A program made the position numbers and the translations under genes. Shown in pieces: positions 17,747 to 36,868 of a stretch of DNA of 64,000 bases. The stretch's first letter is position 1. The number at the start of each line of letters is the position of its first letter. The notes under the pieces are model-generated. The model made no database searches. It had not been told where the DNA came from and saw only the letters and a program-made list of their open reading frames with translations. The DNA comes from Labrys wisconsinensis (GTDB taxonomy: Bacteria > Pseudomonadota > Alphaproteobacteria > Rhizobiales > Labraceae): contig NZ_JAUSVX010000001.1 of the NCBI RefSeq assembly GCF_030814995.1, positions 868,001-932,000 of the forward strand, in the 5' to 3' direction.

Positions 17747-17755
17747 CGAGCGCGC

Positions 17756-19590: not shown

Positions 19591-19651
19591 CCGGCGGCGA
19601 CAACGAGAAGACGACAGCAAGAACACGGGCCTCCAGCAACAGAGGGACATC

Positions 19652-20839
19652 ATGACGACGCGACGCACTGCCATCCTCTCCATCCTGACCGCGGGCCTCG
19701 CCCTCGCGGCGCTGCCGCAGCTCGCGGCGGCGCAGGACTTCCCCAAGCTGAAGCAGCCGCTGGTCATCAGCGTCATCGACGTCGCCGGCGACCTGCAGCT
19801 CAGCCAGCCGGCGCTGGAGAAGTTCGCCGCCACTCATCCCGACCTCGTGTCGAAATTCGTCTTCACCCAGGCGACGGCGCCCGAGCTCGCCGGCAAGCTC
19901 CAGGCCCAGCAGGCGGCCGGCCGGGTCGACATCGACTTCGTGCTCACCGGCAACGACGCGCTGGCCGCCGGCATGGAGCAGGGCCTGTGGACCGAGATCC
20001 TGCCGAAATACGAGGCCAAGTTCCCGGACCTGGAGAAGATCTACCTGCCCGGCGCCTGGGCCATGCAGAAGATGGCGCGGGGCCAGGCCTTCGTCGACGA
20101 CTGGTATCCCTCCGGCCCGCTGCTCGAATATGCGCCGGACCGGGTCAAGGAGGTGCCCGACACCGCCGAGAAGCTGCTCGCCTGGTGCAAGGCCAATCCC
20201 GGCCGCTTCATGTATGCCCGCCCGGCCAATTCCGGCCCGGGCCGCACCTTCGTGATGGGCCTGCCCTATCTCCTCGGCGACAAGGACCCGATGGACCCGG
20301 TGAAGGGCTGGGACAAGACCTGGGCCTACCTGAAGGAGCTGGACGGCTGCATCGAGTACTATCCCGGCGGCACCACCGCGACGATGAAGGAGCTCGGCGA
20401 GGGCAGCCGCGACATCATCGCCACCACCACGGGCTGGGACGTCAACCCGCGCTATCTCGGCATCGTGCCGGAGGAATACAAGGTGGCGACGCTGAAGGGC
20501 TTCCACTGGGTGGGCGACGCCAACTATGTTGCCATCCCCAAGGGGGTCTCGGAGGAGAAGCTCGGCGTGCTGCTGGAGCTTATCGCCTTCATCCTGAAGC
20601 CGGAGCAGCAGGCCTTCATGTACGACCACGGCTACATGTATCCCGGCCCGGCGATCAAGGACGTGCCGATCGAGATGGCCCCGCCGGAGAGCCAGGACAC
20701 GTTCAAGCGCTTCGGCCGGCCGGAATATGCGGCGATGATCGCCGACAACCCGGTCGAGCCGCCGCTCGATGCCAAGCCGCTGGTCGCCATGTTCGAGAAA
20801 TGGGACCGCGACATCGGCGGCGCCAAGCTGAAGAAGTAG
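19652..20839 (+). CDS. ABC transporter substrate-binding protein (family 1, PotD/opine-like)
   Basis: A 395-residue periplasmic protein with signal peptide ~1-27 (TTRRTAILS, cleavage after AAAQ). Mature part begins with LVISVIDVAGDLQLSQPALEKF; later TTGWDVNPRY and DYLP-like aromatic patches form the ligand site. It heads a transporter whose permeases are of the polyamine/opine/phosphonate group. GAGGGAC precedes the ATG. Ligand unknown; the NagB-like neighbour hints at an amino-sugar conjugate. Confidence 0.87.
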   Translation: MTTRRTAILSILTAGLALAALPQLAAAQDFPKLKQPLVISVIDVAGDLQLSQPALEKFAATHPDLVSKFVFTQATAPELAGKLQAQQAAGRVDIDFVLTGNDALAAGMEQGLWTEILPKYEAKFPDLEKIYLPGAWAMQKMARGQAFVDDWYPSGPLLEYAPDRVKEVPDTAEKLLAWCKANPGRFMYARPANSGPGRTFVMGLPYLLGDKDPMDPVKGWDKTWAYLKELDGCIEYYPGGTTATMKELGEGSRDIIATTTGWDVNPRYLGIVPEEYKVATLKGFHWVGDANYVAIPKGVSEEKLGVLLELIAFILKPEQQAFMYDHGYMYPGPAIKDVPIEMAPPESQDTFKRFGRPEYAAMIADNPVEPPLDAKPLVAMFEKWDRDIGGAKLKK

Positions 20840-20847
20840 GGAAGAAC

Positions 20848-20872
20848 GGCCGCGGCGGCTGTCGCCGCGGCC
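20848..20872 (+). promoter_or_regulatory. Intercistronic hairpin after binding-protein gene
   Basis: A 10-bp perfect stem GGCCGCGGCG / CGCCGCGGCC with a 5-nt loop fills the gap between the binding-protein stop (20839) and the ATPase start (20891). No T-run follows, so it more likely shields the upstream message from 3' exonucleases than ends transcription. Confidence 0.75.
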
Positions 20873-20890
20873 CATGGCATGGGAGACCCG

Positions 20891-21973
20891 ATGGCCATTG
20901 CCGCGTCGCGTTTCGAGACCCTGGCCCTGGAAGGCGTCGGCCGCAGCTTCGGCCACCACAACGCCCTGGCCGGCGTCGACCTCACCATCCGGCGCGGCGA
21001 GTTCGTCGCGCTGCTCGGGCCGTCGGGCTGCGGCAAGTCGACCACGCTCAACTGCATCGCCGGCCTGCTGGCGATCTCGGCCGGCCGCATCCTGCTCGAC
21101 GGCCGGCGGATCGACCCGCTGCGCCCGGAGGAGCGCGGCTTCGGCATGGTGTTCCAGAACTACGCGCTGTTCCCGCATCTCAGCGTGCGCCAGAACGTCG
21201 GCTTCGGCCTGAAGATGCGCGGCGTCGGCCGTGAGGAGACCCGCCGGCGCGTCGAGGAAGCGATCCGCCTGGTGCGCCTCGGCGGCCAGGAGGAGAAGCT
21301 GCCGGGGCAGCTCTCCGGCGGCCAGCAGCAGCGCGTCGCCATCGCCCGGGCGGTGGTGATCGAGCCGCCGCTGGTGCTGATGGACGAGCCGCTCTCCAAC
21401 CTCGACGCCAAGCTGCGCCTGGAGATGCGGGCCGAGATCCGCCGCATCCACAACACGCTCGGCGCGACCACCATCTACGTCACCCACGACCAGGACGAGG
21501 CGCTGTCGCTGGCCGACCGCATCGTCGTGCTGCGCGACGGCGTCATCCGCCAGGTCGGCACGCCGCGCGAGCTCTACGAGACGCCGGCCGACGTCGACGT
21601 CGCCGAGTTCATGGGCTTTCGCAACGCCGTGCCCGGCACCTGGCGCGCCGGCGCCGGCGGCGAGACGCGCATCGAGGCGGCGGAGGCGGTGCTGACCGGC
21701 CGCGCCCAGGGCGCGCTGGCGGACGGGGCGCCGGTGCTGGCGGTGTTCCGGCCCGACGATCTCGTCGCCGGCCCCGCCTCGGCCGGCGGCATTCCGGCCG
21801 TGGTGGAGACCATGGAATATCGCGGGCGCGAATTCGTCGGCTCGGCCCGCACGCCCGGCGGCCTGTCGCTGGTGTTCCGCGCGGAGACGCCGGCCGAGGT
21901 CGGCGCGGCCATCGCCCTGGTGCCCGATCCCGCCAAGGTCCTGGTCTTTCCACGGACGGGGGGGCCGCGATGA
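20891..21973 (+). CDS. ABC transporter ATPase, PotA/UgpC type
   Basis: A ~360-residue ATPase: Walker A GPSGCGKST (~45-53), VFQNYALFPHLSVRQNV, signature [15 protein letters not shown], Walker B LVLMDEPLSNLD, switch His in YVTHDQDEALSL, and a C-terminal TOBE-type regulatory part. The ATG at 20891 has GGGAGA upstream; an ATG at 20879 is an alternative. It overlaps the next permease by 4 bp. Being MalK-like, it is also the nearest candidate to energise the ATPase-less CUT1 importer at 14-17 kb. Confidence 0.93.
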   Translation: MAIAASRFETLALEGVGRSFGHHNALAGVDLTIRRGEFVALLGPSGCGKSTTLNCIAGLLAISAGRILLDGRRIDPLRPEERGFGMVFQNYALFPHLSVRQNVGFGLKMRGVGREETRRRVEEAIRLVRLGGQEEKLPGQLSGGQQQRVAIARAVVIEPPLVLMDEPLSNLDAKLRLEMRAEIRRIHNTLGATTIYVTHDQDEALSLADRIVVLRDGVIRQVGTPRELYETPADVDVAEFMGFRNAVPGTWRAGAGGETRIEAAEAVLTGRAQGALADGAPVLAVFRPDDLVAGPASAGGIPAVVETMEYRGREFVGSARTPGGLSLVFRAETPAEVGAAIALVPDPAKVLVFPRTGGPR

Positions 21974-22860
21974 GCGGCCGGGACGAGGGCCCGGACTGGC
22001 GCCGGCGCCTCGCCGCCCGCGGCATCGACGGGGTGACGCTGCTGGTCGTGCCGGCGCTGCTCTTGATCCTCCTGCTGTTCGTCTATCCCTTCGCCTATGG
22101 CCTGGTGCTGTCCTTCGAGCCGAAGGAGGGCGGCCCGTTCGGCAACTATGTCGCCTTCTTCTCCGATCCCTTCCTCTACGACACGATCCCGGCGACGCTG
22201 TGGATCGCCGTGCCGGTGACGCTGGTCAGCCTGGTGCTGGCCCTGCCCATCGCCTTCCGCGTCCGCCTGATGCGGCGCCAGCGCCTGCTCACCACCATCC
22301 TGGTGATCCCGATCACGCTGGGCACCGTGCTGGTGGCCGAGGGCCTGCTCAACTATCTCGGGCCCCAGGGCTGGTTCAACCGCACCCTGATCTGGCTCGG
22401 CCTGATCGAGAAGCCGCTGCGGCTGGTGCACAACTACTGGGGCGTGTTCGCCTCGCTGCTGATCACCGGCTTCCCCTTCACCTTCCTGCTCACCCTCTCC
22501 TATGTCTCGGGCATCGACCCGGCGCTGGAGCGGGCCGCGGCGACGCTCGGCGCCGATGCGCGGCGGCGTTTCGTGCATGTCTTCCTGCCGCTGCTGGTGC
22601 CCGGCCTCGCCATCAATTTCTGCCTGTCCTTCGTGCAGAGCTTCTCGGTCTTCCCCTCCGCCGTGCTGCTCGGCGCGCCGGCGGGGGAGACGCGGGTGAT
22701 CTCGATCGCCGCCTACCAGGCCGCCTTCGAGCGCTACGACGCCTCGATGGGCGCGGCCATCGCCATCATCATGGGGCTGGTGCAGCTCGCCGTGGTGGTG
22801 GCGGTGCTGGCGGCACGCGGCCTGTTCTATCGCGGCTCGACCGCCGGCTCGAAGGGGTGA
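21970..22860 (+). CDS. ABC permease, PotB type
   Basis: A 296-residue inner-membrane protein with six hydrophobic stretches (first ~20-42) and the EAA loop LERAAATLGADARRRFVHVFLPLLVPGLAI around 189-217. Part of the transporter encoded from 19652. ATGA overlap with the ATPase gene; 4 bp before the next permease start. Confidence 0.92.
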   Translation: MSGRDEGPDWRRRLAARGIDGVTLLVVPALLLILLLFVYPFAYGLVLSFEPKEGGPFGNYVAFFSDPFLYDTIPATLWIAVPVTLVSLVLALPIAFRVRLMRRQRLLTTILVIPITLGTVLVAEGLLNYLGPQGWFNRTLIWLGLIEKPLRLVHNYWGVFASLLITGFPFTFLLTLSYVSGIDPALERAAATLGADARRRFVHVFLPLLVPGLAINFCLSFVQSFSVFPSAVLLGAPAGETRVISIAAYQAAFERYDASMGAAIAIIMGLVQLAVVVAVLAARGLFYRGSTAGSKG

Positions 22861-22864
22861 GGCC

Positions 22865-23698
22865 GTGATCCGCGACACCACGACCGGCGCCCGGCTCTGG
22901 TCCACCCTGGTCTGGGTCCTGACCGGCTTCTTCGTGCTCAACGTCGCCGCGATGATGGCGACGGTCGTGACGAGCTCGTTCTCGACCCGCTGGCTGCAGT
23001 CCTGGCTGCCGGCCGGCTACACCACGCGCTGGTACCTCGCCGCGTGGCGCGAGTTCCAGCTCGGCGACGTGCTGCTGACGACCTTCGAGGTGGTGGGAGC
23101 CGTGGTCCTGCTCTCCGGCCTGATCGGCGTGCCCGCCGCCTATGCCATGGCCCGGCGCGACTTCTCCGGCAAGCGCCTGGTGCTGCTGATCTTCCTGCTG
23201 CCGCTCCTGGTGCCGCCGATGACCTTCGGCATCCCGCTCGCCACCGTGCTCTACCAGCTCGGGCTCGGCGGCACCTTCTGGGGCGTGGTGCTGGCCAATC
23301 TCGTGCCCTCGGTGCCCTTCGTCATCATGGTGATGATCCCCTTCATCGAGCAGATCGACCCGAAGGTGGAGGCGGCGGCGCGGGTGTTCGGCGCCGGCAC
23401 GCTGCAGCTCTTCCGCCACGTGCTGATCCCGATGCTGACGCCGGGCGTGCTGGCGGCGCTGCTGCTGGTGCTGGTGCGCACCATCGCCATGTTCGAACTG
23501 ACCTTCCTCACCGCCGGCCCGACCAGCCAGACCCTGGTGGTGGCGCTCTACTATTCCGTGTTCGCCGCCGGCGTGCGCGCCGTGCAGTCGATCGACGCCA
23601 TGGCGGTGGTCTACACCGCCACCACCCTGGTCTGGCTGCTGATCGCCCTGCGCTTCGTCAACCCGACCCAGATCGTCGGCCGCGGCGGGCGGCGGTGA
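22865..23698 (+). CDS. ABC permease, PotC type
   Basis: A 277-residue membrane protein, six segments, EAA loop VEAAARVFGAGTLQLFRHVLIPMLTPGVL near 170-198. GTG start. Its last 128 bases are repeated almost exactly 984 bp downstream, on the far side of a toxin-antitoxin module. The gene itself is intact, so the downstream piece is the extra copy. Confidence 0.92.
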   Translation: MIRDTTTGARLWSTLVWVLTGFFVLNVAAMMATVVTSSFSTRWLQSWLPAGYTTRWYLAAWREFQLGDVLLTTFEVVGAVVLLSGLIGVPAAYAMARRDFSGKRLVLLIFLLPLLVPPMTFGIPLATVLYQLGLGGTFWGVVLANLVPSVPFVIMVMIPFIEQIDPKVEAAARVFGAGTLQLFRHVLIPMLTPGVLAALLLVLVRTIAMFELTFLTAGPTSQTLVVALYYSVFAAGVRAVQSIDAMAVVYTATTLVWLLIALRFVNPTQIVGRGGRR

Positions 23699-24182: not shown

Positions 24183-24523
24183 CCGACAGCCGAGGGGGGT
24201 TCGAGATGACCGTCGAGCGTGGAACTGGCAATGTGTTCGCCGACCTCGGCTTGCCCGATGCGGCCAACCGGCAGACCAAGACCCGTCTAGCCCTGGCGGT
24301 GACCGAGATCATCAAGGATCGCAAGCTGCGCCAGGTTGAGGCCGCGAAAGTGCTCGGCATCCCGCAGTCGAAGGTCTCCGCGTTGATGAACTACCGGCTG
24401 GATGGGTTTTCGGTGGAACGGCTGATGAGCTTCCTGACGCGGCTCCATCGCGATGTCGAGATCGTCATCCGGCCGAGCAGGGACGACGGCGAAGGCCGCG
24501 TCTCCGTCCACGCGCTGCTCTGA
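24179..24523 (+). CDS. HigA-type XRE antitoxin
   Basis: A 114-residue protein (or 105 from an ATG at 24206). The helix-turn-helix is LRQVEAAKVLGIPQSKVSALMNYRLDGFSVERLMSFL, roughly residues 51-87. It would neutralise the toxin encoded directly upstream and repress the shared promoter. The first start overlaps the toxin stop as ATGA, favouring coupled translation. Confidence 0.9.
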   Translation: MTDSRGGFEMTVERGTGNVFADLGLPDAANRQTKTRLALAVTEIIKDRKLRQVEAAKVLGIPQSKVSALMNYRLDGFSVERLMSFLTRLHRDVEIVIRPSRDDGEGRVSVHALL

Positions 24524-24835: not shown

Positions 24836-25195
24836 ATGGGCTGCGATGTCGAGTACACGGATGAGTTTGGCACGTGGTATGAGACCCTGATCGAGGGAAT
24901 CCAGGACGATATCGACCGGGCGGTCGGCATGCTGGAGGCCAGAGGCCCCCAACTGCCGTTCCCTTACTCATCGGGGATCGAGGGCTCGCGGCACACCCAT
25001 ATGCGCGAGTTGCGTATCCAGAGCGGTAGCGAGCCTTACCGGGTCTTCTATGCCTTCGATCCCCGGCGGACGGCCATTCTGCTCATCGGCGGCAGCAAAG
25101 CCGGGCACGATCGCTTCTACGAGACGATGATCCCGGTCGCCGACCGCCTGTACGAGGAGCACCTGATCGAGATCAGGAAGGAAGGACTGATATGA
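24836..25195 (+). CDS. RelE/HigB-type toxin (phage-derived Gp49-like/DUF891)
   Basis: A 119-residue protein: EFGTWYETLIEGIQDDIDRAV, then LPFPYSSGIEGSRHTHMRELRIQSGSEPYRVFYAFDPRRTAILLIGGSK and DRFYETMIPVADRLYEEHL. The MRELR...YRVFYAFDP...AILLIGG core is the hallmark of this toxin family. The start at 24836 is chosen because the upstream part of the open frame lies in the dyad operator. Overlaps the antitoxin gene by 4 bp. A second module of different sequence from the one at 23.8 kb. Confidence 0.9.
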   Translation: MGCDVEYTDEFGTWYETLIEGIQDDIDRAVGMLEARGPQLPFPYSSGIEGSRHTHMRELRIQSGSEPYRVFYAFDPRRTAILLIGGSKAGHDRFYETMIPVADRLYEEHLIEIRKEGLI

Positions 25196-25994: not shown

Positions 25995-27044
25995 ATGAAG
26001 CTTTCACTCCGAACGGCCGCGAGCGCCCTGTGCCTCGGCCTGCTCACAGCGCTCGCCGCGACCACGGCGGCCGAGGCCGCGGCCAAGTGCATCAAGGGCG
26101 ACCGCAAGCCGCCCTACACCATCGGCTGGGCCAACATCTATTCGGTGCCGACCTGGATGAAGCAGACCCAGGGCACCATCGAGGCCGAGGTCGCCGACCT
26201 CAAGAAGCAGGGCCTCGTCGACAAGCTGGTGGTCACGGACGCCCAGGGCGACGCCAACATCCAGATCCAGCAGATCCAGTCGATGATCGACGCCAATGTC
26301 GACGCCATCATCCTGATCGCCGGCTCCTCCACCGCCCCCGCCCGCGTCATCGCCGACGCCTGCGCCAAGGGCATCGCCATCATCAATTTCGACAGCCTGG
26401 TCGACACCGACCAGGTCACCGCCAAGATCAACACCGATTCGTCCCAATGGGGCGCCGGCGCCGCCAAGTTCCTGATCGACGCGATCGGCGGCAAGGGCAA
26501 GATCATCGTCCTCAACGGCCCGGCCGGCGTCTCCGTCTCCGACGACCGCCGCAAGGGCGCCGAGCCGGTGCTGAAGGCCCATCCCGACGTGCAGATCCTG
26601 GCCGAGACCAACACCGCCTACAACACCGCGCCGGCCCAGGAGGCGGTGACCAGCCTGCTCTTCGCCAATCCCGAGATCGACGGCGTGCTCTCCCTCGGCG
26701 GCGCCCTCTCCGCCGGCGCGGTCCTCGCCATGGACAAGCAGGGCCGGGCGATGGTGCCGATCACCGGCGAGAACGCCCGCCAGTTCCTCGAATTGTGGAA
26801 GGAGAAGGACCTCAAGGCCTGGGCCACCATGCAGCCCAACTGGCTCGGCGCCTTCGCGACCTATGTCGCGGTCCAGGCGCTTTCCGGCAAGGACGTGCCC
26901 GCCTTCGTCAAGATCCCGCTGCCGGTGATCGACAATTCCAACATCGACCAGTACCTGGCCCGCGCCAAGGACTTCCCGGCCGACGGCTATATCTTCTCGC
27001 CCTACGACCAGGCGCTGTTCGAGAAGCTGCTGGCCGGAAAGTAA
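25995..27044 (+). CDS. Ribose-type ABC substrate-binding protein (CUT2)
   Basis: A 349-residue periplasmic binding protein of the RbsB/XylF class. Signal peptide ~1-29 (cleavage near AAEAAA). Body includes YTIGWANIYSVPTWMKQTQGTIEAEV, DAQGDANIQIQQIQSMIDANVDAIILIAGSS and IIVLNGPAGVSVSDDRRKG. ATG 25995 has GAAGGGA upstream. First gene of an importer with RbsA- and RbsC-like subunits. Substrate unknown; the divergent and convergent catabolic genes beyond 30.8 kb may use it. Confidence 0.93.
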   Translation: MKLSLRTAASALCLGLLTALAATTAAEAAAKCIKGDRKPPYTIGWANIYSVPTWMKQTQGTIEAEVADLKKQGLVDKLVVTDAQGDANIQIQQIQSMIDANVDAIILIAGSSTAPARVIADACAKGIAIINFDSLVDTDQVTAKINTDSSQWGAGAAKFLIDAIGGKGKIIVLNGPAGVSVSDDRRKGAEPVLKAHPDVQILAETNTAYNTAPAQEAVTSLLFANPEIDGVLSLGGALSAGAVLAMDKQGRAMVPITGENARQFLELWKEKDLKAWATMQPNWLGAFATYVAVQALSGKDVPAFVKIPLPVIDNSNIDQYLARAKDFPADGYIFSPYDQALFEKLLAGK

Positions 27045-27078
27045 GCGCCGCCAGGGACCAGGCATGACGTTTGCTGCC

Positions 27079-27102
27079 CCCCTCTCCCGGCTGGGAGAGG
27101 GG
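27079..27102 (+). promoter_or_regulatory. Intercistronic hairpin after binding-protein gene
   Basis: A perfect 10-bp stem CCCCTCTCCC / GGGAGAGGGG with a GGCT loop, 35 bp after the binding-protein stop and 60 bp before the ATPase start. No T-run. Probably limits decay of, or read-through from, the binding-protein message. Confidence 0.75.
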
Positions 27103-27161
27103 TTCCCCGTGCTCCATCGACTCACGTCGCGCGCGCCGTATCGCGTCCACGAGACCTCTTC

Positions 27162-28667
27162 ATGCCCGAACCCGTCCTGGCCGCCCGCGGGGCGACCCGT
27201 TCCTTCTTCGGCAACACCGTGCTGCGGGACGTGTCGATCCGCCTGGAACCCGGCCGCATCCACGCCCTGCTCGGCGAGAACGGCGCCGGCAAGTCGACCC
27301 TGATCAACCTCCTCTCCGGCGCGCTGCGCCCCGACGGCGGCTCGATCGAGATCGACGGCAAGCCGCAGGCGCGGTACGGCCCGCCAGCCGCCCGGCGGGC
27401 CGGCATCGCCGTGGTGCAGCAGGAGCTCAGCCTCACCAGCCATCTCTCCATCGCCGAGAATATCGGCCTCGGCGCCTATCCCCGCCGCTTCGGCTTCGTC
27501 GACTATGTCGGCCTGGGGCGCGAGGCGGCTCATGTCTGCGCCCTGGTCGGCCTCGACGAGCCGCTCGCCACGCCCGTCGGCGAGCTGCCGCTCGGCCGGC
27601 GCCAGATGGTCGAGATCGCCAAGGCGCTGTACCGCAGGCCGCGGGTGCTGATCCTCGACGAGCCGACCTCCTCGCTCTCCGCCCACGAGACCGCGGCCCT
27701 GGTCGCCGTGCTGCACCGGCTGAGAGACCAGGGCACCGCCATCCTCTACATCTCGCACCGGCTCAACGAGGTGCTGACCCTGTGCTCGCACGTCACCGTG
27801 CTCAAGGACGGACAGGTGACCGCCGACCGGCCGATGCAGGACCTCGACGCCGCCGGCCTGGTCCGCCTGATGGTCGGCCGCGATCCCGGCGACATCTTCC
27901 CCGCCTGGCAGCGCCAGGAGGAGCGGCCGCCCGTCGTCGAGGTCCGCGGCTTCCATGCCGGCATGATGCAGGGCGTCGACCTCGACATCCGCGCCGGCGA
28001 GGTGCTCGGCATCGGCGGCCTGGTCGGCCAGGGCCAGGAGGACCTGCTCCTCGGCCTCTACGGCGCCATCCGCGCCGGCGCCGACAGGGCCACGGTCGGC
28101 GGCGAGCCCGGACTGCCGGCCTCGGTGCCGCGGGCCAACCGCCTCGGCCTCGCCTATGTCCCGGCCGACCGCAAGCGCGAAGGCCTGCACCTCGTCCACA
28201 CCATCCTCGCCAACCTGATGCTTCCCGCCCAGGCCCGGGCTCCGGCCCTCGCCCCGCGCAGCCGGGCGCGGGAGCGGCTGGCCGGCCGGGGCCTGGCGGC
28301 GCGCCTCGCCATCAAGGGCGACCTCGACCGGCCGGCGCTCGCCCTCTCCGGCGGCAACCAGCAGAAGGTGGCGCTGGCCAAATGGATGCCGCACGAGCCG
28401 AAGGTGCTGCTGCTCAACGATCCCACCCGCGGCGTCGACGTCGAGACCAAGCGCGAGATCTATGCCATGCTGCGCCGCTTCGCGGCCGAGGGCCGGGCGG
28501 TGGTGCTCCTGAGCTCCGACACGCCCGAGCTGGTGCATCTGTGCGACCGGGTCGCGGTGGTGCGCGACGGACGCATCGTCGCCGCGCTCGAGCGCGAGGC
28601 CCTGTCGGAGGAAAGCATCGTCGGCGCCGCCATGGGCGCGACCGCAGGGGAGGCCGCCCATGCCTGA
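27162..28667 (+). CDS. Ribose-type ABC ATPase with two nucleotide-binding domains
   Basis: A 501-residue RbsA-like protein. First domain: Walker A GENGAGKST (~43-51), signature LPLGRRQMVEIAKAL (degenerate, usual in this class), Walker B VLILDEPTSSL. Second domain: degenerate Walker A region VGQGQEDLL, signature LSGGNQQKVALAKWM, and LLLNDPTRGVDVETK. Overlaps the next permease gene by 8 bp. Confidence 0.94.
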   Translation: MPEPVLAARGATRSFFGNTVLRDVSIRLEPGRIHALLGENGAGKSTLINLLSGALRPDGGSIEIDGKPQARYGPPAARRAGIAVVQQELSLTSHLSIAENIGLGAYPRRFGFVDYVGLGREAAHVCALVGLDEPLATPVGELPLGRRQMVEIAKALYRRPRVLILDEPTSSLSAHETAALVAVLHRLRDQGTAILYISHRLNEVLTLCSHVTVLKDGQVTADRPMQDLDAAGLVRLMVGRDPGDIFPAWQRQEERPPVVEVRGFHAGMMQGVDLDIRAGEVLGIGGLVGQGQEDLLLGLYGAIRAGADRATVGGEPGLPASVPRANRLGLAYVPADRKREGLHLVHTILANLMLPAQARAPALAPRSRARERLAGRGLAARLAIKGDLDRPALALSGGNQQKVALAKWMPHEPKVLLLNDPTRGVDVETKREIYAMLRRFAAEGRAVVLLSSDTPELVHLCDRVAVVRDGRIVAALEREALSEESIVGAAMGATAGEAAHA

Positions 28668-29631
28668 CGCGACGATGCGGGGGCCGGCCCCCGGCCGGCT
28701 CTATGCGGCGATCCAGGGCCGGCGCAATGCCGGCTCGCTCGGCCTCTTCGCCGTGGTCGCGGCCTTCCTCCTCGCCTATGCCGTGCTGCATCCCGGGCTC
28801 CTCACCCCGGCGGGCCTGGCCAAGTTCACCCAGAGCTGGTTTCCCCTCGCCCTGGTCGCGATGGCGCAGGCCATGCTGATGCTGGCCGGCGGCATCAGCC
28901 TCGCCATCGGCCCGACGGTCAGCCTCGGCGCCGTCATCGCCGCGACCGTGATGGCCGGGGGCGGCGGCGTCGCCGGCGGCATCGCCGCGGTGGCGCTGGC
29001 CGGCCTCGCCAGCGGCCTCGTCACCGGCCTGATCGTCGTGCGCCTCAACCTGCCGGCCATCGTCGTCACCCTGGCCGGCTCCTTCATCATCAGCGGCGCC
29101 GCGCTGGTGGTCCTGCCGAGGCCCGGCGGCAGCGTGCCGGACTGGCTCTCCGACCTCCTGGCTGGCAACAGCCCGACGGCGCTGGCGATCCTGGTCCTGG
29201 TGGTGCTGGCCTGGAAGGCCTATCTCGCCACGCCCCTCGGCCTCAGCCTCTATGCCGCCGGCGAGAACCCGGTCGGGGCCTACCGCTCCGGCGTGCCGGT
29301 CGACCGCGCCCGCATCGCCGCCTATGCGCTCTCCAGCCTGCTCGCCGCCGGCGCCGGGCTGTTCGTCGCCGCCCAGACCGGCTCGGGCGACCCGCTGATC
29401 GGCCAGGCCTTCACGCTCAACTCCATCGCCGCCGCCGTGCTGGGCGGCATCGGCTTCCTCGGCGGCCAGGGCACCATGCGCGGCGCGCTGGCCGGCAGCC
29501 TGCTGCTCAGCGTCATGATCAGCGTGATGTTCCACCTCGGCTTCTCGCCGGTTTCGCAATATGTGGCGCAGGGCCTGATCATCATCGGCGCCGTCGCCCT
29601 GCCGCAGCTGCGCAAGGCCCTGCTGCCATGA
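28660..29631 (+). CDS. Ribose-type ABC permease 1 (RbsC-like)
   Basis: A 323-residue membrane protein with 8-10 hydrophobic segments and the conserved GGISLAIGPTVSLGAV and AAVLGGIGFLGGQGTMRGALAGSLLL blocks of the RbsC family. Works with a second permease of the same family directly downstream (4-bp overlap), so the channel is probably a heterodimer. Confidence 0.93.
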   Translation: MPDATMRGPAPGRLYAAIQGRRNAGSLGLFAVVAAFLLAYAVLHPGLLTPAGLAKFTQSWFPLALVAMAQAMLMLAGGISLAIGPTVSLGAVIAATVMAGGGGVAGGIAAVALAGLASGLVTGLIVVRLNLPAIVVTLAGSFIISGAALVVLPRPGGSVPDWLSDLLAGNSPTALAILVLVVLAWKAYLATPLGLSLYAAGENPVGAYRSGVPVDRARIAAYALSSLLAAGAGLFVAAQTGSGDPLIGQAFTLNSIAAAVLGGIGFLGGQGTMRGALAGSLLLSVMISVMFHLGFSPVSQYVAQGLIIIGAVALPQLRKALLP

Positions 29632-30581
29632 CCCTGTCCCCTCGCCTCAAGAGCATCCTCGCCCACCGCGCCGTCCTCACCGCCCTGCTGGTCGTCGCGG
29701 TGTGGATCGGCGCCAGCTTCGTCTCGCGCGGCTTCGGCGCCTATGGCCATCTGCGCTATCTCCTGGAGCTCGCCGCCGTGATCGGGCTCGTCGCCATCGG
29801 CCAGACCTTCGTGGTCATCGCCGGCGGCATCGACCTCTCCGTGGCGGCGCTGGTGACCGTGGCCGCCGTGGCGCTGCCGCTCCTCTCCGTCTCCGGGGAC
29901 GAGACCGGACTGGTGCCGGTCGTCGGCGTGCTGGCGCTGACCAGCCTGATCGGCCTCCTCAACGGCGCCGGCATCGCCTGGCTCCGGGTGCATCCGATGA
30001 TCATGACCCTGGCCATGGCGACCTTCCTGCAGGGCCTGCTGATCATCATCGCCGGCGGCAGCGCCATCACGCCCTCCAACCCGCTGGTCTCCTGGCTCGG
30101 CTCGGCCCGGCCGGCCGGCATCCCCGCCGGCATCCTGCTCTGGATCGCCTGCGCCGCCCTCGCCTTGCTGGTGCTGCACGTCACGCCCTTCGGCGCCCGG
30201 GTCTACGCCCTCGGCGCCAACGAGCTGGCGGCGCGCCTCTCCGGCGTGCCGGTGCCGGCGACCATCCTCGCGGTCTATGCCCTCAGCGGCTTCGCCGCCG
30301 GGCTCGCGGGCGTGCTGGTGCTCGGCAACAACGGCCAGGGCTATGTCGGCGTGGGCGATCCCTACCTCCTCGCCTCGATCGCCGCCGTGGTGCTCGGCGG
30401 CACCTCGATCTTCGGCGGCCGCGGCACCTATGCCGGCACCATCCCCGGCGCCATCCTGCTGGTGACCATCACCGCCCTGATCACCGTGATCAACGCCTCG
30501 CCGGGCTGGCGCAGCATCCTGTTCGGCTCGCTGATCCTGGCGCTGCTGCTGCTCTCGGGGCGCGAGGCGGCGCGGCGGTGA
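29628..30581 (+). CDS. Ribose-type ABC permease 2 (RbsC-like)
   Basis: A 317-residue relative of the preceding permease, with VVIAGGIDLSVAALVTVAAV and AVVLGGTSIFGGRGTYAGTIPGA as family blocks. Last gene of the operon. A family B repeat separates it from a convergent amidohydrolase gene. Confidence 0.93.
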   Translation: MTLSPRLKSILAHRAVLTALLVVAVWIGASFVSRGFGAYGHLRYLLELAAVIGLVAIGQTFVVIAGGIDLSVAALVTVAAVALPLLSVSGDETGLVPVVGVLALTSLIGLLNGAGIAWLRVHPMIMTLAMATFLQGLLIIIAGGSAITPSNPLVSWLGSARPAGIPAGILLWIACAALALLVLHVTPFGARVYALGANELAARLSGVPVPATILAVYALSGFAAGLAGVLVLGNNGQGYVGVGDPYLLASIAAVVLGGTSIFGGRGTYAGTIPGAILLVTITALITVINASPGWRSILFGSLILALLLLSGREAARR

Positions 30582-30835: not shown

Positions 30836-31738
30836 CTACCCCACCCCATACACCCTCCGCGCCGTGTCGTGGAACACCGCCCGCTGTTCGTCCCGGCTGA
30901 GATCCGCGGTGAGCGCACGCAGCGTCCCCACCACCTCTCCATAGCTTGCATGCAGCCCCGCCACCGGGAAATCGCTGCCGAACATCGTGCGCTCCGGCCC
31001 GAAGCCGTCGAGGCAATGGCCGATCACCGGGCGCATGCTCTCCAGCGTCCAGTGCGGGTCATAGGCGACGAGGTCGGAGATCTTGATCACCACGTTCGGC
31101 CGCCGCGCCAGCTCGGCGAGGCCGCGCCGCCAGACCGCCATACCCTCGGGATCGCGGTCGATCGGGCTGCCGCCGTGCTCCAGCACGAAGAGCTGGTCGG
31201 GGTGGTCGGCGACGAGCCGTGCCGCCTCGGCGAGCTGCGGCGGGAACAGCATGAGGTCGAAGACGAGGCCGTGGCGCTGCAGTCGGGCGAGGCCGGCGCG
31301 CCAGGCCGGATCGGCCATCAGGTCGCCGCGCGGCGCGAAGCGCCGGGCCGGATCCGGCGTCCAGCTGAGGATGTCGCGTATCCCCGCGACCCGCGGATTG
31401 GCCGCCTGCGCCTCGATCTGCGCCGCCGCGCCGACATCGGCCAGCGCCACGCGCGCGACATAGCGGCTGGCGACGCCGCCGGCCTTGTCGAGGCCGTCGA
31501 GCCAGCGCGTCTCGCCGAGGCCGTCGCCCTCCTGCCAGCCGGCCTCGACATGCACGCTCGCCACGACAGTCTGGCCGGCGGCGTCGGCCAGGAAATCGGC
31601 AGGGAGGTAATTGCGCCGGATCGGTCCGAGATCGCCGAGGCCGCCGAGTTCGCCGGCCGTGGCCGCAAGCCAGGGATGCCGGCCCATCGCCAGGTCCCAC
31701 AGATGATGGTGCGCGTCGATCACCGGCCCGTCATACAT
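30836..31738 (-). CDS. Amidohydrolase family protein (amidohydrolase 2, lactonase-like)
   Basis: A 300-residue TIM-barrel hydrolase. VIDAHHHLWDL (residues 6-16) gives the first metal-binding histidines, FVLEHGGSP a later His, and ERTMFGSDFPV the catalytic Asp. The size and motifs are those of L-fuconolactonase/rhamnonolactonase and 2-pyrone-4,6-dicarboxylate hydrolase relatives. It is divergent, 53 bp away, from a PLP enzyme gene. It probably opens a lactone or cyclic amide made in the same pathway; which one is not evident. Confidence 0.85.
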   Translation of the reverse strand: MYDGPVIDAHHHLWDLAMGRHPWLAATAGELGGLGDLGPIRRNYLPADFLADAAGQTVVASVHVEAGWQEGDGLGETRWLDGLDKAGGVASRYVARVALADVGAAAQIEAQAANPRVAGIRDILSWTPDPARRFAPRGDLMADPAWRAGLARLQRHGLVFDLMLFPPQLAEAARLVADHPDQLFVLEHGGSPIDRDPEGMAVWRRGLAELARRPNVVIKISDLVAYDPHWTLESMRPVIGHCLDGFGPERTMFGSDFPVAGLHASYGEVVGTLRALTADLSRDEQRAVFHDTARRVYGVG

Positions 31739-31791
31739 CGCCCGTCCTCCATGGCCGCCCAGCCAGACCCTGATTTGCCGAGGGATGCAAG

Positions 31792-33129
31792 ATGACCACC
31801 GACGCCCCGACACTTCTGCCCGCCCCGCTCCTGTCTGCCTCAGCCCGGCCGGTGCTGCTCGACGACAGCCTGCGCGGCGTGCCGCCGGGCACCGCGGATC
31901 TCTCCGCCGCGGACCTGCCGCTCCTGCGCTGGCACCCCGCGGATGGGCGCATGGCGCTCCCGGTGCTGACGCTGGACGAGACCGCCTTCCGCGCCAACCG
32001 CGACCTGTTCCTGTCCTATGCCCGGGAGCAGGGCGTCGCCGTCGCCCCGCACGCCAAGACGCCGATGGCGCCAGACCTCGCCCGCGCCCTGGTCGAGGGT
32101 GGGGCCTGGGGCACAACCGTGGCCGACATCCGCCAGGCCGGCGTGATGCTGCGCGCCGGGCTCGACCGGCTGATCCTGGCCAACGGCATCGGCGGGGCCG
32201 GCGGCGCCGGCCGGCTCGCCGCCCTCATCCGCCGCTATCCCGGAGCGCTGCTGCATGTCTTCGTCGATTCGGTGGCTGCCGCTTCCGCGCTCGCCGCGGC
32301 CTGGCGCGCCGATCCCGCCCTGCCGCCGCTGCGCGTGCTGGCCGAGACCGGCGCCGCCCGCGGCGGGGCGCGCAGCCTCGCCGAGGTCGAGGCCATTCTC
32401 GACGTCGTCCTCGCCAGCGGCGGCCGGCTGGAGCCGGCGGGCGTCGCCACCTATGAGGGCGCCGCGGCGGTCGCCTCCCCCGAGCGCACGCTCGAGATCA
32501 TTGCCGGGCTGCTCGAATTGACCGCGGAGGCCTTCGCCCTGCTGCGCCGCCGGCTCGGCGACCGTCGGCCGCTGATCGTCACCGCCGGCGGCTCGGTGTT
32601 CTTCGACCGGGTGATCGCGGCGCTCGGGCCCGTGGTCGCCGCGGACGGGGCGGCCGAGCTGGTGCTGCGCAGCGGCGCCATCTTCTTCCATGACCATGGC
32701 GTCTACGACCGTGCCTTCGCCGCCCTCGACGCGCGGCAGGGCTTCCACCCGGGTGGCGCACCGGCCGCCGCCCGCGCCCTGTTCCGGCCGGCGCTGCGGC
32801 TCTGGGCCGAGGTGCTGTCGCGCCCCGAGCCTGGCCTCGCCGTCTGCGGCCTCGGCATGCGCGACGCCTCCTTCGACCAGGGCTTTCCCTCGGCCCTCGC
32901 CATCTGGCGCGACGGCCGGCGCCAGGACCGGCCCCCCGCGGCCGAGGTGACCAAGCTCAACGACCAGCACGCCTTTCTCGCGCTCGGCCCGGGCGCCGAC
33001 ATCCGGGTCGGCGACGTCGTCGAGTTCGGCATCTCCCATCCCTGCACCTGCCTCGACCGCTACCGCGTCCTCTTCGGAGCCGATGGCAAGGGCTTCGTGC
33101 AGCACGCCTTCCCCACCTTCTTCGGCTAG
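31792..33129 (+). CDS. D-serine dehydratase / D-threonine aldolase-like PLP enzyme
   Basis: A 445-residue fold-type III PLP enzyme. Lys89 in VAPHAKTPMAPDL is the expected Schiff-base lysine, and GISHPCTCLDRY (His416, Cys418) matches the zinc pair of eukaryotic-type D-serine dehydratase. The alanine-racemase-like barrel is followed by a beta domain. Known members split D-serine or D-3-hydroxy amino acids such as D-threonine and D-3-hydroxyaspartate. With a deacylase next door, release and then cleavage of a D-amino acid is plausible. Eleven bp separate it from the next gene. Confidence 0.87.
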   Translation: MTTDAPTLLPAPLLSASARPVLLDDSLRGVPPGTADLSAADLPLLRWHPADGRMALPVLTLDETAFRANRDLFLSYAREQGVAVAPHAKTPMAPDLARALVEGGAWGTTVADIRQAGVMLRAGLDRLILANGIGGAGGAGRLAALIRRYPGALLHVFVDSVAAASALAAAWRADPALPPLRVLAETGAARGGARSLAEVEAILDVVLASGGRLEPAGVATYEGAAAVASPERTLEIIAGLLELTAEAFALLRRRLGDRRPLIVTAGGSVFFDRVIAALGPVVAADGAAELVLRSGAIFFHDHGVYDRAFAALDARQGFHPGGAPAAARALFRPALRLWAEVLSRPEPGLAVCGLGMRDASFDQGFPSALAIWRDGRRQDRPPAAEVTKLNDQHAFLALGPGADIRVGDVVEFGISHPCTCLDRYRVLFGADGKGFVQHAFPTFFG

Positions 33130-33139
33130 GGCTCGAGCC

Positions 33140-34150
33140 ATGCATTCCGGCGTCTTCCATGACCTCGATTTCGAGCGCGACGGCAAGGCCCGCGGCCATG
33201 TCAGCATGCCGTTCTCGGTCGACCGCTCGCCCTATTTCCACGTGCGCACCCCTGTCGTCACCGTGCGCAACGGCCCGGGGCCGCGTCTGCTGCTGATGGC
33301 CGGCAACCATGGCGACGAGTACGAGGGCGAGTTGACGCTGGCCCGCCTCGCCCGCCGCCTGGAGCCGGCCGACATCCGCGGCGCCGTCACCATTCTCCCG
33401 GTCGCCAACCGGCCGGCGGTCATTGCGGCGAAGCGCTGCTCGCCGCTCGACGCGGGCAACCTCAACCGCGCCTTCCCCGGCGATCCCCTGGGCGCACCGA
33501 CCGGCCGCCTCGCCTGGATGCTGGAGAAGGAGATCTTCCCGCGCCACGACGTGGTGCTCGACCTCCATTCCGGCGGCACCTCCATGGCGCACCTGCCCTG
33601 CTCGCTGATCGAGAAGGACGAGGACACCGCCCGCCACGCCCGGGCGCTCGACCTCCTGCAGGCGCTCGGCATGCCCTACGGCTTCGTCGCCGCGAACGGG
33701 CCGGGCGCGCCGACCTCGATGGGCGCCGCCCGCCGGGCCGGCGCCATCGGCGTCAGCGGCGAGTTCGGCGGCGGCGGCACCACCACGCCGGCCAGCATGG
33801 CGCTGACCGCCCGCGCCATCGACGGGCTGATGATGCGCCTCGGCATCACCGCGGCGCCGCTGCTCGGCGAGCATGCGCCGGTGGAGCGGCCGACCGCGCT
33901 GCTCTCGCTCGCCCGCCATTCCCAGGCGATCTACGCCGAGCGCCGCGGCTGGTGGGAGCCGGCGGTCGAGCCGGGCGCGGCCGTCGCGGCGGGCGATCTC
34001 GCCGGCTGGTATCATGACCTCGACGACGACACGGCGCAGGAGCAGCCCCTGCGCTTCGCCGAGGCCGGCATCGTCATCTCCTGCCGGCTGCACACCATGT
34101 CGGAAGCCGGCGACTGCCTGATCCAGGTGGCCGAGCCGCTGCGGGCCTGA
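33140..34150 (+). CDS. Succinylglutamate desuccinylase/aspartoacylase family deacylase
   Basis: A 336-residue zinc hydrolase. AGNHGDEYEGE provides His57 and Glu60, LDLHSGGT the third ligand (~148), and GVSGEFGGGG the catalytic Glu region. The family includes AstE, aspartoacylase and DoeB (N-acetyl-diaminobutyrate deacetylase), which remove acyl groups from amino-acid nitrogens. Placed between a D-amino-acid PLP enzyme and an unknown TIM-barrel-like protein on the same strand. Confidence 0.87.
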   Translation: MHSGVFHDLDFERDGKARGHVSMPFSVDRSPYFHVRTPVVTVRNGPGPRLLLMAGNHGDEYEGELTLARLARRLEPADIRGAVTILPVANRPAVIAAKRCSPLDAGNLNRAFPGDPLGAPTGRLAWMLEKEIFPRHDVVLDLHSGGTSMAHLPCSLIEKDEDTARHARALDLLQALGMPYGFVAANGPGAPTSMGAARRAGAIGVSGEFGGGGTTTPASMALTARAIDGLMMRLGITAAPLLGEHAPVERPTALLSLARHSQAIYAERRGWWEPAVEPGAAVAAGDLAGWYHDLDDDTAQEQPLRFAEAGIVISCRLHTMSEAGDCLIQVAEPLRA

Positions 34151-34162
34151 AGGGAGCACGCC

Positions 34163-35398
34163 ATGAACCGCTCGATCTGGACCTATCCCTGGGACGTGCA
34201 GGACCTCGGCCTCGACACGGTGTGCGGCGAGATCCGCGATGCCTGCGGCCTCGACGGCATCAGCCTGGCGACCTCCTACCATGCCGGCCGCTTCCTCCAG
34301 CCGCGCAGCCCGCGCCGCCGCTCCTACTTCCCCGAGGACGGCACCATCTATTTCCGGCCGACGCTGGAGCGCTGGGCCGACCTCGCCGTCACGCCCGAGG
34401 TCGCCTCGATCGTCGCCGAGCAGGACGTCTTCGCCGGGCTCCTGGCGGCGCGCGAGCGCTCGGGCCTCGGCGTCTCCTGCTGGACGGTCTGCCTCCACAA
34501 CACCCGGCTCGGCATGCGCCATCCCGACGTGGTGGCGCGCAACGCCTTCGGCGATCCCAGCTATTTCAGCCTCTGCCCGTCCAACGAAGACGCGCGCGCC
34601 TATGTCCGCACCCTGGTGGCCGACCTCACCCACACCTGGCGGCCGGACCGGGTGGAGCTGGAGAGCCCCTGCTTCATGGACTTCGTCCACGGCTACCACC
34701 ACGAGAAGGACGGCGTCGGCCTCACGCCGGACGCCAATTTCCTGATGTCGCTGTGCTTCTGCCCGGCCTGCACCGAGCGGGCGACCCGCGCCGGCGTGCC
34801 GGTCGAGGCGGCGCGGCAGCTGGTGCGCGGCTGGATCTGCGAGGCCTGCGAGCAAGAGGTGCCACAGGCCCGCTTTCCCGATTTTCCCGGCGCCGGCCTC
34901 ACCGCCTTCGCGCCCTGGCCGGAGCTCCATGCCTTCCTCGCCTGGCGCTTCGAGCCGGTGACCAGCCTCGTCGCCGAGATCCGCGAGGCCGCCCATCCCG
35001 ATAGCCAGGTGGTGACGATCGATCTCAGCGAAGGCTGGCTCGGCGGCTGCGACCATGCGGCGATCGCCCGCGCCTGCGACGGCCTGCTGATCTGCGCCTA
35101 TGACATGGACGCGGCGGCGACGCACGCCGTGCTGGCCAGGGCCCGCGCCGCGGCCGGCCCGGACAAGGTCGTCGGCGCCGGATTCCGGGTGTTCCATCCC
35201 GAGATGGCGGGCGCGGACGACCTCGCCGCCAAGGTCGCGGCGGCGGAAGCCGGCGGGGCGCGGGCCTTCAACTTCTACAATTATGGCCTGATCCCGCAGC
35301 CCCGCCTCGCCTGGATCCGCCGCGCGGTGGACGGGCTGGCGAGTAACAACGTGAAGCCTGCAATTCCGGTGCCTGGCAGAACTGTCGAGAAACGCTGA
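34163..35398 (+). CDS. Uncharacterised protein, possible TIM-barrel hydrolase
   Basis: A 411-residue protein I do not recognise as a named enzyme. It starts RSIWTYPWDVQDLGLDTVCGEI, has a central CFCPACTERAT motif (two CxxC-like cysteines), and ends with GARAFNFYNYGLIPQPRLAWIRRA. Spacing of beta strand-like segments (VSCWTVCLHN, VELESPCFMDF, VVTIDLSEGW, LLICAYDMD, VVGAGFRVF) suggests an alpha/beta barrel like those of family-10-type glycosidase relatives. It follows the deacylase gene by 12 bp after AAGGGAGC and is surely in that operon. Candidate catalytic acids are not assigned. Confidence 0.7.
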   Translation: MNRSIWTYPWDVQDLGLDTVCGEIRDACGLDGISLATSYHAGRFLQPRSPRRRSYFPEDGTIYFRPTLERWADLAVTPEVASIVAEQDVFAGLLAARERSGLGVSCWTVCLHNTRLGMRHPDVVARNAFGDPSYFSLCPSNEDARAYVRTLVADLTHTWRPDRVELESPCFMDFVHGYHHEKDGVGLTPDANFLMSLCFCPACTERATRAGVPVEAARQLVRGWICEACEQEVPQARFPDFPGAGLTAFAPWPELHAFLAWRFEPVTSLVAEIREAAHPDSQVVTIDLSEGWLGGCDHAAIARACDGLLICAYDMDAAATHAVLARARAAAGPDKVVGAGFRVFHPEMAGADDLAAKVAAAEAGGARAFNFYNYGLIPQPRLAWIRRAVDGLASNNVKPAIPVPGRTVEKR

Positions 35399-35821: not shown

Positions 35822-36868
35822 ATGCAGTACCGCCCGCTCGGCCGCACCGGCCAGACCGTCTCCGTCATCTGCCTCGGCACCATGACCTGGGGCGACCAGA
35901 ACACGGCCGAGGAGGGCTTCGCCCAGATGGACTACGCCCTCGACCGGGGCGTGACCTTCTTCGACACGGCCGAGCTCTATTCGGTTCCGCCCAAGGCCGA
36001 GACGACGGGCTCGACCGAGCGGATCATCGGCGACTGGTTCGCCTCGCGCAAAAGCCGCGACCAGGTGATCCTCGCCTCCAAGGTGGTCGGCGCCTCGGCC
36101 ATGACCTGGTTCCGCGACGACGGGTCCGAGAGCCGCCTCAACCGGGCGCAGATGACCGAGGCGCTGGACAAGAGCCTGAAGCGCCTCAGGACCGATTATA
36201 TCGACCTCTACCAGCTGCATTTCCCCGAGCGGCCGATGCAATGGGGTGCCAATCCCACCGCGTTCCGGCCCTCGCCGCAGACCGAGACCACCACCATCGC
36301 CGAGCAGCTCGAGGTGCTCGACGATTTCGTCAAGGCCGGCAAGGTGCGCTGGGTCGGCCTCTCCAACGAGAGCGCCTGGGGCGCCATGACCTTCCTCAGG
36401 GAGAGCGAGGTCAAGGGCCTGCCCCGCATGCAGTCGATCCAGAACGCCTATTCCCTGATCAACCGCACCTTCGAGACCGGCCTCGGCGAGGTCGCCATGC
36501 GCGAGGGGCTCGGCCTGCTGGCCTATTCGCCGCTGGCCCAGGGCTACCTCACCGGCAAGTACCAGGGTGGCGCGCTGCCGCCGGGCTCGCGCAAGGCGCT
36601 CTACAACCGCCTGCAGCGCTACGAGAAGCCCGGCGCGGCCGTCGCCATCGACGCCTATGTCGCCCTGGCGGCCAGATCCGGCCTCGACCCGGCGCAGCTG
36701 GCGCTCGCCTTCGTCAACACCAGGCCGTTCCTGACCGCGACCATCATCGGCGCCTCGACCATGGCCCAGCTCAAGACCGCGATCGATTCGATCGACGTCG
36801 TCCTGCCGCCGGAGCTGGAGGCCGAGATCGACGCCATCCACCAGTTGCACATGAACCCGGCGCCCTGA
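35822..36868 (+). CDS. Aldo/keto reductase
   Basis: A 348-residue NAD(P)H-dependent reductase of the Tas/YajO type. The catalytic tetrad is visible as Asp and Tyr in FFDTAELYS, Lys in ILASKVVGA and His in YQLHFPERP; the cofactor-binding C-terminal part is ATIIGASTMAQLKTAI. Reduces aldehydes or ketones; the natural substrate is not known. Fifteen bp before the thpR gene, so possibly co-transcribed. Confidence 0.92.
   Translation: MQYRPLGRTGQTVSVICLGTMTWGDQNTAEEGFAQMDYALDRGVTFFDTAELYSVPPKAETTGSTERIIGDWFASRKSRDQVILASKVVGASAMTWFRDDGSESRLNRAQMTEALDKSLKRLRTDYIDLYQLHFPERPMQWGANPTAFRPSPQTETTTIAEQLEVLDDFVKAGKVRWVGLSNESAWGAMTFLRESEVKGLPRMQSIQNAYSLINRTFETGLGEVAMREGLGLLAYSPLAQGYLTGKYQGGALPPGSRKALYNRLQRYEKPGAAVAIDAYVALAARSGLDPAQLALAFVNTRPFLTATIIGASTMAQLKTAIDSIDVVLPPELEAEIDAIHQLHMNPAP

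Follow-up and report, generated by a model that had tools for sequence, protein, structure and literature searches.

The closest described pathway to the one considered here is encoded by the ong cluster of Pseudoalteromonas prydzensis ACAM 620, which serves catabolism of N-acetylglucosaminate (GlcNAc1A). In the parts of the published account drawn on here (PMC9537276), OngB, a D-aminoacylase relative whose structure is described in PMC12017989, deacetylates N-acetylglucosaminate, and OngC, a fold-type III pyridoxal phosphate (PLP) enzyme that also accepts D-serine and D-threonine, converts D-glucosaminate to 2-keto-3-deoxygluconate (KDG) and ammonia; OngD, a RidA protein, is required for growth in a role that is called unknown there, and KdgK phosphorylates KDG. 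Oxidised amino-sugar acids arise where lytic polysaccharide monooxygenases attack chitin, and the sole complete route for them that was found in the literature considered, as far as those sources extend, is that of marine gammaproteobacteria. We analysed a stretch of 64,000 nucleotides from Labrys wisconsinensis (NCBI RefSeq assembly GCF_030814995.1, contig NZ_JAUSVX010000001.1, positions 868,001 to 932,000; hereafter the window), in which eight neighbouring genes encode a four-gene CUT2-type ATP-binding cassette (ABC) importer (25995-30581) and four further proteins termed AMH, DSD, ASTE and BARREL. This gene set is real, widely conserved and found together more often than by chance. We tentatively propose, at slightly less than an even chance, that these genes serve the uptake and breakdown of a neutral compound that resembles a sugar and derives from an N-acylated 2-amino-2-deoxy-aldonic acid, such as an N-acetylhexosaminono-lactone or N-acetylglucosaminate in the form of a small glycoside. 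The proposal draws on the gene set, the conserved residues, a predicted fold, and recurrence beside RidA and N-deacylases, seen across two bacterial phyla and partly also among haloarchaea. The eight genes are as follows.

25995-27044, plus strand: CUT2 sugar-binding protein (SBP); Pfam Peripla_BP_4, 1.6e-49
27162-28667, plus strand: CUT2 ABC ATPase; ABC_tran, with AraG as best NCBIfam model at 434.9 bits, below the cut-off of 689
28660-29631, plus strand: CUT2 permease A; open reading frame (ORF) with homologues at the matching place in relatives
29628-30581, plus strand: CUT2 permease B; ORF with homologues at the matching place in relatives
30836-31738, minus strand: lactonase-type amidohydrolase (AMH); Amidohydro_2, 7.3e-45
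31792-33129, plus strand: fold-type III PLP enzyme (DSD) of the amino-acid-deaminase family; D-ser_dehydrat and Ala_racemase_N
33140-34150, plus strand: AstE/AspA-type N-deacylase (ASTE), DoeB-like; AstE_AspA_cat, 1.5e-47, scored on a longer ORF
34163-35398, plus strand: barrel protein of 411 amino acids (BARREL), GHL10-like but below family cut-offs; predicted glycoside-hydrolase fold

AMH is divergent from the run of DSD, ASTE and BARREL, with 53 bp between AMH and DSD, 10 bp between DSD and ASTE, and 12 bp between ASTE and BARREL. An ATG at 33083 would place the start of ASTE inside the DSD gene, and the start at 33140 agrees with the relatives. An original prediction, made by a model from the letters and their translations, had placed the four genes here in this divergent arrangement beside the importer and had named the families of AMH, DSD and ASTE together with K89, H416 and C418 of DSD and H57 and E60 of ASTE. 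The layout was borne out, Pfam and NCBIfam agree on the three families, and each named residue proved invariant in all 64 aligned rows, the window row included.

To define the set beyond the window, BARREL relatives were collected by a scan of one genome per species, which gave 156; the best 80 of these were retained together with flanks of up to 10 kb, and their genes were called and clustered by script, some loci stopping at contig ends. SBP, AMH, DSD, ASTE and BARREL occur together in 54 of the 80 relatives, in loci of at most about 21 kb, and the single counts are 62 for SBP, 60 for AMH, 58 for DSD and 59 for ASTE. These counts are slightly low, because the caller overlooked a few genes that tblastn detects (AMH and DSD in L047, ASTE in L069, DSD in L051) and no genes were called in L075. 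The relatives frequently have two genes that the window cluster lacks: a RidA-type gene (60/80), as a rule between DSD and ASTE and called in all but two (L062, L078) of the 54 full-set relatives, and an IclR regulator (48/80). A D-aminoacylase-like gene, always adjoining BARREL, stands alongside ASTE or replaces it in ten relatives. Pairwise distances of the five proteins across loci correlate with r of 0.90-0.96, and for all ten pairs none of 500 permutations reached as high a value, as would be expected of joint inheritance. The original prediction had staked its case on the genes being conserved together, and the survey finds both this conservation and the parallel divergence of the parts. 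SBP is the most conserved protein: its identity reaches 91% in Mesorhizobium relatives in which AMH, DSD, ASTE and BARREL are 62-70% identical, which suggests tight constraint by one ligand.

The relatives are centred on rhizobia, and the whole cluster is seen in the annotation of R. johnstonii 3841 pRL10. Plasmid records carrying a BARREL relative number 152, 114 of them from Rhizobium, and DSD homologues are present on 194. Within the phylum the BARREL family is patchy, since only 7 of 398 sampled genomes, with the genome of the window counted, gave matches. An aldo-keto reductase encoded at 35822-36868 was considered as a missing dehydrogenase and dropped, because tblastn matched it in none of the 80 loci.

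K89, H416 and C418 of DSD are invariant in an alignment that includes an OngC (2 of 59 rows, differing in length by at least 60, were omitted); K89 would bind PLP, and H416 and C418 would bind a metal. The best solved relative of DSD is PDB 3gwq (193 bits, against 54 for D-threonine aldolase 7dib), which is also that of the OngC homologue from the homologous ong cluster of Pseudoalteromonas sp. CF6-2 (L112; 401 bits). Against the model of the 3-hydroxy-D-aspartate aldolase BhcC (NCBIfam NF045642) DSD scored 61.2 bits, below the cut-off of 690. A phylogenetic tree places DSD and OngC on one side of a branch with 100/100 support, opposite the aldolase-type enzymes, and DSD is 28.8% identical to the CF6-2 OngC homologue. 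The genome holds no close second DSD; the next match is 35% identical over part of the protein. Relatives are annotated as alanine racemase or amino acid deaminase. The family name alone was not taken to make DSD a D-serine dehydratase, since OngC, which belongs to that family, accepts D-glucosaminate as well as D-serine and D-threonine.

In ASTE the invariant residues are H57, E60, H151 and E208. Its best NCBIfam model is DoeB (TIGR02994), at 206.2 bits against a cut-off of 402.7, and among solved structures the uncharacterised 3cdx (177 bits) ranks before DoeB 6twm (168.6 bits). AMH scored 142.3 bits against L-fucono-1,5-lactonase (NCBIfam NF052480; cut-off 400) and 87.9 bits against PDB 4dlf. 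The importer combines a Peripla_BP_4-type SBP, a double ATPase and two permeases encoded together, as expected of CUT2 systems; the permeases were identified by position and homologues rather than by a family scan, and the solved relatives of SBP (best 104 bits) are too distant for naming a ligand. Upstream of the importer, a small HTH_37 protein (24206-24523) and a Gp49-like protein (24836-25195) are encoded, a composition matching that of HigBA-type toxin-antitoxin pairs. The region 17738-23698, which lies some 2 kb upstream of the CUT2 genes, encodes a LacI regulator, a Glucosamine_iso-family protein and an ABC importer, and is possibly a second amino-sugar locus.

The original prediction had found no recognised family for the 411-residue BARREL, and by sequence this stands for the window protein, which matched no Pfam or NCBIfam model and, at E ≤ 10, did not match GHL10 (PF02638); it does not stand at the level of the structural model. 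In an alignment of 32 rows, weak GHL10 matches at E ≤ 10 were obtained for 28 (best 1.2e-6), GHL6 matches for 13 and a GH42 match for one, with none for the window row, and searches of solved structures with the single protein and with a profile gave chance-level matches only. The structure prediction that had been suggested, run with AlphaFold2 on this alignment (A1), yielded a (beta/alpha)8 barrel of glycoside-hydrolase type with a pLDDT (predicted local distance difference test) score of 89.8. The best solved match by VIA-align was Cwp19 (Z 26.1, root-mean-square deviation 2.9 over 288), followed by alpha-L-fucosidase 6tvk (Z 24.4), the C-terminal domain of PgaB (Z 24.1), the beta-galactosidase-type 5e9a (Z 23.5) and GH42 5xb7 (Z 23.1); Foldseek, ranked by E-value, placed PgaB first. 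Cwp19 and PgaB, both among the best matches, act on amino-sugar glycans. In 21 rows, the window included, H40, W107, C138, P139, E167, Y313 and Y372 are among the invariant residues, and E167 is the sole invariant acidic one. A 'CxxC-like motif' had also been noted; the motif is present, its exact form being C198-x-C200-x-x-C203, and it is kept in 20 of the 21 rows. This CxCxxC arrangement resembles, we presume, the zinc site of GH42. BARREL is probably cytosolic, because no signal peptide is seen by eye at its N-terminus.

In the model, E167 sits at the end of strand 4, where D196 of Cwp19 and D474 of PgaB lie, and on strand 7 (residues 336-342) no acid is kept across the 21 rows. As far as the accounts drawn on here extend, Cwp19 breaks down peptidoglycan, its strand-4 Asp196 is thought to be key and a glycine stands in place of the glutamate that related enzymes have on strand 7 (PMC5765458), and PgaB requires D474 (PMC5933820). 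Profile comparison with DigH, another GHL10 protein and PgaB gave probabilities of 25, 70 and 0.65, which do not fix the active-site register; hhalign puts E167 on the first residue of the DD pair of DigH, a register that is unsure because that probability is only 25.

Based on these features, the following route can be drawn. The CUT2 importer would take up the compound, as its family suggests, and BARREL, through E167, would release or prepare the amino-sugar unit, which is the weakest step. AMH would then open a lactone, in keeping with its family, and ASTE, or a D-aminoacylase in some relatives, would remove the N-acyl group. DSD, with PLP on K89 and a metal at H416 and C418, is predicted from OngC and from these residues to eliminate the 3-hydroxyl and ammonia, and the resulting enamine would be cleared by RidA, which is encoded in the operon in most relatives and would be supplied elsewhere or be dispensable here. 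The 2-keto-3-deoxy acid would enter the Entner-Doudoroff route through a KDG kinase and a 2-keto-3-deoxy-6-phosphogluconate (KDPG) aldolase encoded elsewhere. The genome carries a KdgK-like gene (30% identity) on contig 8, with a KDPG aldolase gene 16 kb away, and two KDPG-aldolase-family matches in all; these genes are compatible with entry of KDG into central metabolism and are probably common in such bacteria. The steps from deacylation to enamine removal appear to resemble those of OngB, OngC and OngD of the marine chitin-oxidation pathway. The acid-processing half of the route is the better supported one; we infer the substrate class, the order of steps and the reaction of BARREL.

Variants of the cluster bear on the division of labour within it. 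On plasmids of Azospirillum (L117) and Chelatococcus (L118), DSD is encoded with an amino-acid-type ABC importer (PAAT), RidA, an AstE-type deacylase and LacI, with no AMH, CUT2 importer or BARREL annotated, and in Agrobacterium L113 these parts recur, RidA being divergent there. These clusters share with the window relatives the RidA protein, the AstE-type deacylase and a PLP enzyme that is 57-61% identical to DSD in L117 and L118 and 48% identical in L113; they differ in the amino-acid importer and in that the lactonase-type enzyme and the barrel protein are not annotated. We infer a split of tasks: an open N-acyl-amino acid would be the substrate of the deacylase, DSD and RidA, and the CUT2 importer, BARREL and AMH would prepare it from a neutral sugar-like precursor. 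Aureimonas L098 encodes both importers, an AstE-type deacylase, AMH, DSD and BARREL in one stretch, with RidA not annotated. Klebsiella L114 (5212-13739) and a Mesorhizobium plasmid, L115 (5199-13844), encode DSD relatives 43-44% identical, together with RidA, hydantoinase/oxoprolinase subunits and an amino-acid importer, and may represent a further variant of the core.

In 9 of the 80 loci BARREL heads a second module consisting of a CUT2 importer, phosphotriesterase-family and creatininase-family proteins, GntR and an FGGY kinase, and in L056 (10013-19935) and L079 both modules flank one shared BARREL gene. The module includes a protein whose best NCBIfam model was phospho-furanose lactonase, at 159.3 bits against a cut-off of 630 for the one that was scored. 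A Listeria record (L147, 7942-11119) encodes a phosphotriesterase and a creatininase related to those of this module (creatininase 45% identical) with a phosphotransferase system and a KDGP aldolase family gene, and may offer a lead to the chemistry of the second module.

The original prediction had read the cluster as serving uptake and stepwise breakdown of an N-acylated D-amino acid or a sugar-linked one. The idea is right in outline, fitting the D-aminoacylase-like genes in 10 and the RidA genes in 60 of the 80 relatives, but its focus belongs nearer to N-acyl-amino-sugar acids than to plain N-acyl-D-amino acids. A simple N-acylated 3-hydroxy-D-amino acid (D-serine, D-threonine or D-3-hydroxyaspartate), or a sugar conjugate of one, deacylated by ASTE, dehydrated by DSD and freed of enamine by RidA, is an unlikely substrate, though one to be taken seriously. 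DSD carries a D-serine dehydratase domain and has relatives with amino-acid annotations, OngC deaminates D-serine and D-threonine in the account cited, the PAAT clusters use an amino-acid importer, and aldolase-type PLP enzymes stand near BARREL in four loci (L059, L081, L141, L143), three of which were scored against BhcC at 198.5-405.7 bits (cut-off 690). With such a substrate, however, it is hard to see what the CUT2 importer, the sugar-lactonase-type AMH and the glycosidase-fold BARREL would do, and the second module, with its FGGY kinase and phospho-furanose-lactonase-like protein, points to sugars. Together, the CUT2 importer, the lactonase-type enzyme and the glycosidase-fold barrel point to a sugar-derived substrate more than to a simple N-acyl-D-amino acid.

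Among deeper BARREL relatives, Nonomuraea (Actinomycetota; L111) has a contiguous run of D-aminoacylase, DSD homologue, Rid and BARREL. Seven further BARREL stretches of the phylum were compared by blastp with the cluster families: L138 holds the full set, creatininase is present in L140 (together with Rid) and in L142, L144 has Rid and a D-aminoacylase-like protein, and L139 no enzyme partner. L141 and L143 hold Rid, a D-aminoacylase-like amidohydrolase and an aldolase-type PLP enzyme, and next to BARREL they have a short-chain dehydrogenase/reductase (SDR) and a Gfo/Idh-like gene, the latter identified by eye. L061 has Rid and an Amidohydro_3 protein close to BARREL, and L030 a creatininase. 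Six haloarchaeal loci, with homologues 27-36% identical, were viewed, and a region without annotation (L102) was left out. Among the six, creatininase occurs in three (L094, L099, L100), Rid in two (L094, L099) and D-aminoacylase in one (L096), the last together with GH20, heparinase and a PIG-L deacetylase. L094 also encodes an SDR and a member of the enolase superfamily. In L095 a sugar importer is accompanied by Gfo/Idh, M20 peptidase and dipeptide epimerase, and in L101 Gfo/Idh stands with SDR, sialidase and fucosidases, the other partners being absent from both.

The remaining haloarchaeal locus, Halorussus L100 (7489-19575), has its BARREL homologue between a serine hydrolase and a DUF1343 gene, in the vicinity of NagZ, anhydro-MurNAc kinase, a peptidoglycan-recognition protein, creatininase and two GH18 genes. 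Archaea should lack peptidoglycan, which makes these neighbours odd. Such a setting of chitin/peptidoglycan genes, like the GH20, PIG-L deacetylase and D-aminoacylase genes of L096, also speaks for the proposed amino-sugar substrate. Together with the activity of Cwp19 on peptidoglycan, this neighbourhood favours a peptidoglycan-derived substrate (muramic acid, its lactam, lactone or lactyl-peptide), in which creatininase- and AstE-type enzymes would open the lactam or amide and BARREL would split the muramyl bond. We consider this quite improbable: it is the neighbourhood of one of the six haloarchaeal loci, that homologue is 27% identical, and the recurrent neighbours identified in the 80 relatives are others, although single neighbours there lacked annotation. 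It is very improbable that the substrate is opine-like or a signalling conjugate, such as an N-acyl-homoserine lactone or a conjugate of amino acid and sugar resembling a mannityl opine, on which AMH would act as the lactonase and ASTE as the acylase. The pairing of lactonase-type enzyme and N-deacylase and the rhizobial centre of the relatives speak for it; against it, the recurrent families identified include neither an opine dehydrogenase nor an oxidase, and a D-serine-dehydratase-type enzyme and a CUT2 importer are not known to have a place in acyl-homoserine-lactone breakdown.

Several observations weigh against an N-acyl-amino-sugar acid derivative as the substrate. In the tree, OngC, on a long branch and among open forks, groups with Nonomuraea, Eleftheria and Shinella proteins (97/90) and not with DSD, the one D-aminoacylase tested (L056) is closer to the D-aminoacylases AfDam and BbDam (297 and 291 bits) than to OngB (241), and the similarity of the KdgK-like protein is weak. 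Species ancestry alone could yield the same correlation of distances; in L034, L035 and L036 the genes for importer, AMH, RidA and BARREL are retained but leave no space for DSD, and BARREL stands without any named partner in L006, L010, L013 and L068. The window itself has no RidA gene: it is cleanly missing, because ASTE begins 10 bp after DSD, and all nine RidA-family matches of the genome lie elsewhere; the most similar of them, at 52% identity, is encoded on a different contig. BARREL has E167-S168 where GHL10 has Asp-Asp, and beta-galactosidases and an alpha-L-fucosidase are among its fold neighbours (Z 20-24). CUT2 importers usually transport monosaccharides, which argues against a disaccharide, and the conserved set holds no lactone-making dehydrogenase.

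If the proposal is true, many rhizobia have their own route for oxidised amino sugars, with a different importer, a different deacylase and a new glycosidase-fold family. A bolder version, which we regard as somewhat unlikely, is that BARREL founds a new family of glycosidases or related sugar-cleaving enzymes spanning alphaproteobacteria, an actinomycete and haloarchaea, working intracellularly on N-acyl-amino-sugar acids or lactones, and that it supplies a pathway on land that is a complete equivalent of marine chitin oxidation, with one barrel gene serving two import-and-breakdown modules in L056 and L079.

Compared with known systems, BARREL shares with GHL10 (Pfam PF02638; Cwp19, DigH) and GH153 (PgaB) the (beta/alpha)8 fold and, as it appears, an acidic residue ending strand 4, and with Cwp19 also the want of a conserved acid on strand 7; it differs in that it matches no Pfam family, is 12% identical over the aligned fold, carries Glu-Ser in place of Asp-Asp as well as the CxCxxC motif, and shows no signal peptide by eye. 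ASTE resembles DoeB, the N-acetyl-L-2,4-diaminobutyrate deacetylase, as its best NCBIfam model, but scores half the curated cut-off, and no ectoine genes were recognised around it. The statement that no described pathway has this set was half right. Open-access full-text papers, judged by titles and the starts of abstracts, held nothing on point for the gene set or a glucosaminate dehydratase, a scope outside which most subscription papers lie and which gives no proof of absence, whereas the acid-processing core matches the logic of ong, in which, as far as the cited account extends (PMC9537276), the 'D-amino acid' is 2-amino-2-deoxy-gluconate.

The window is not filed as a member of the ong system, because it encodes neither an OngB-type deacetylase nor RidA in the cluster, and because a KDG kinase, GH20 OngA, the SSS transporter and TonB receptors are found neither among its eight genes nor among the recurrent families identified. 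A CUT2 ABC importer stands here in place of the SSS symporter and TonB receptors, an AstE-type deacylase (D-aminoacylase in 10 of the 80 relatives) in place of OngB, a GHL10-like barrel in place of GH20 OngA, and IclR or LacI in relatives in place of MurR; a lactonase-type enzyme is added, and no kinase belongs to the set. Common to both are N-deacylation before deamination, as we would order the steps here, a fold-type III PLP enzyme with the same lysine, histidine and cysteine residues, a RidA gene in the cluster of most relatives, and no kinase acting first. The second half of the window pathway may thus work like ong without being a member of it.

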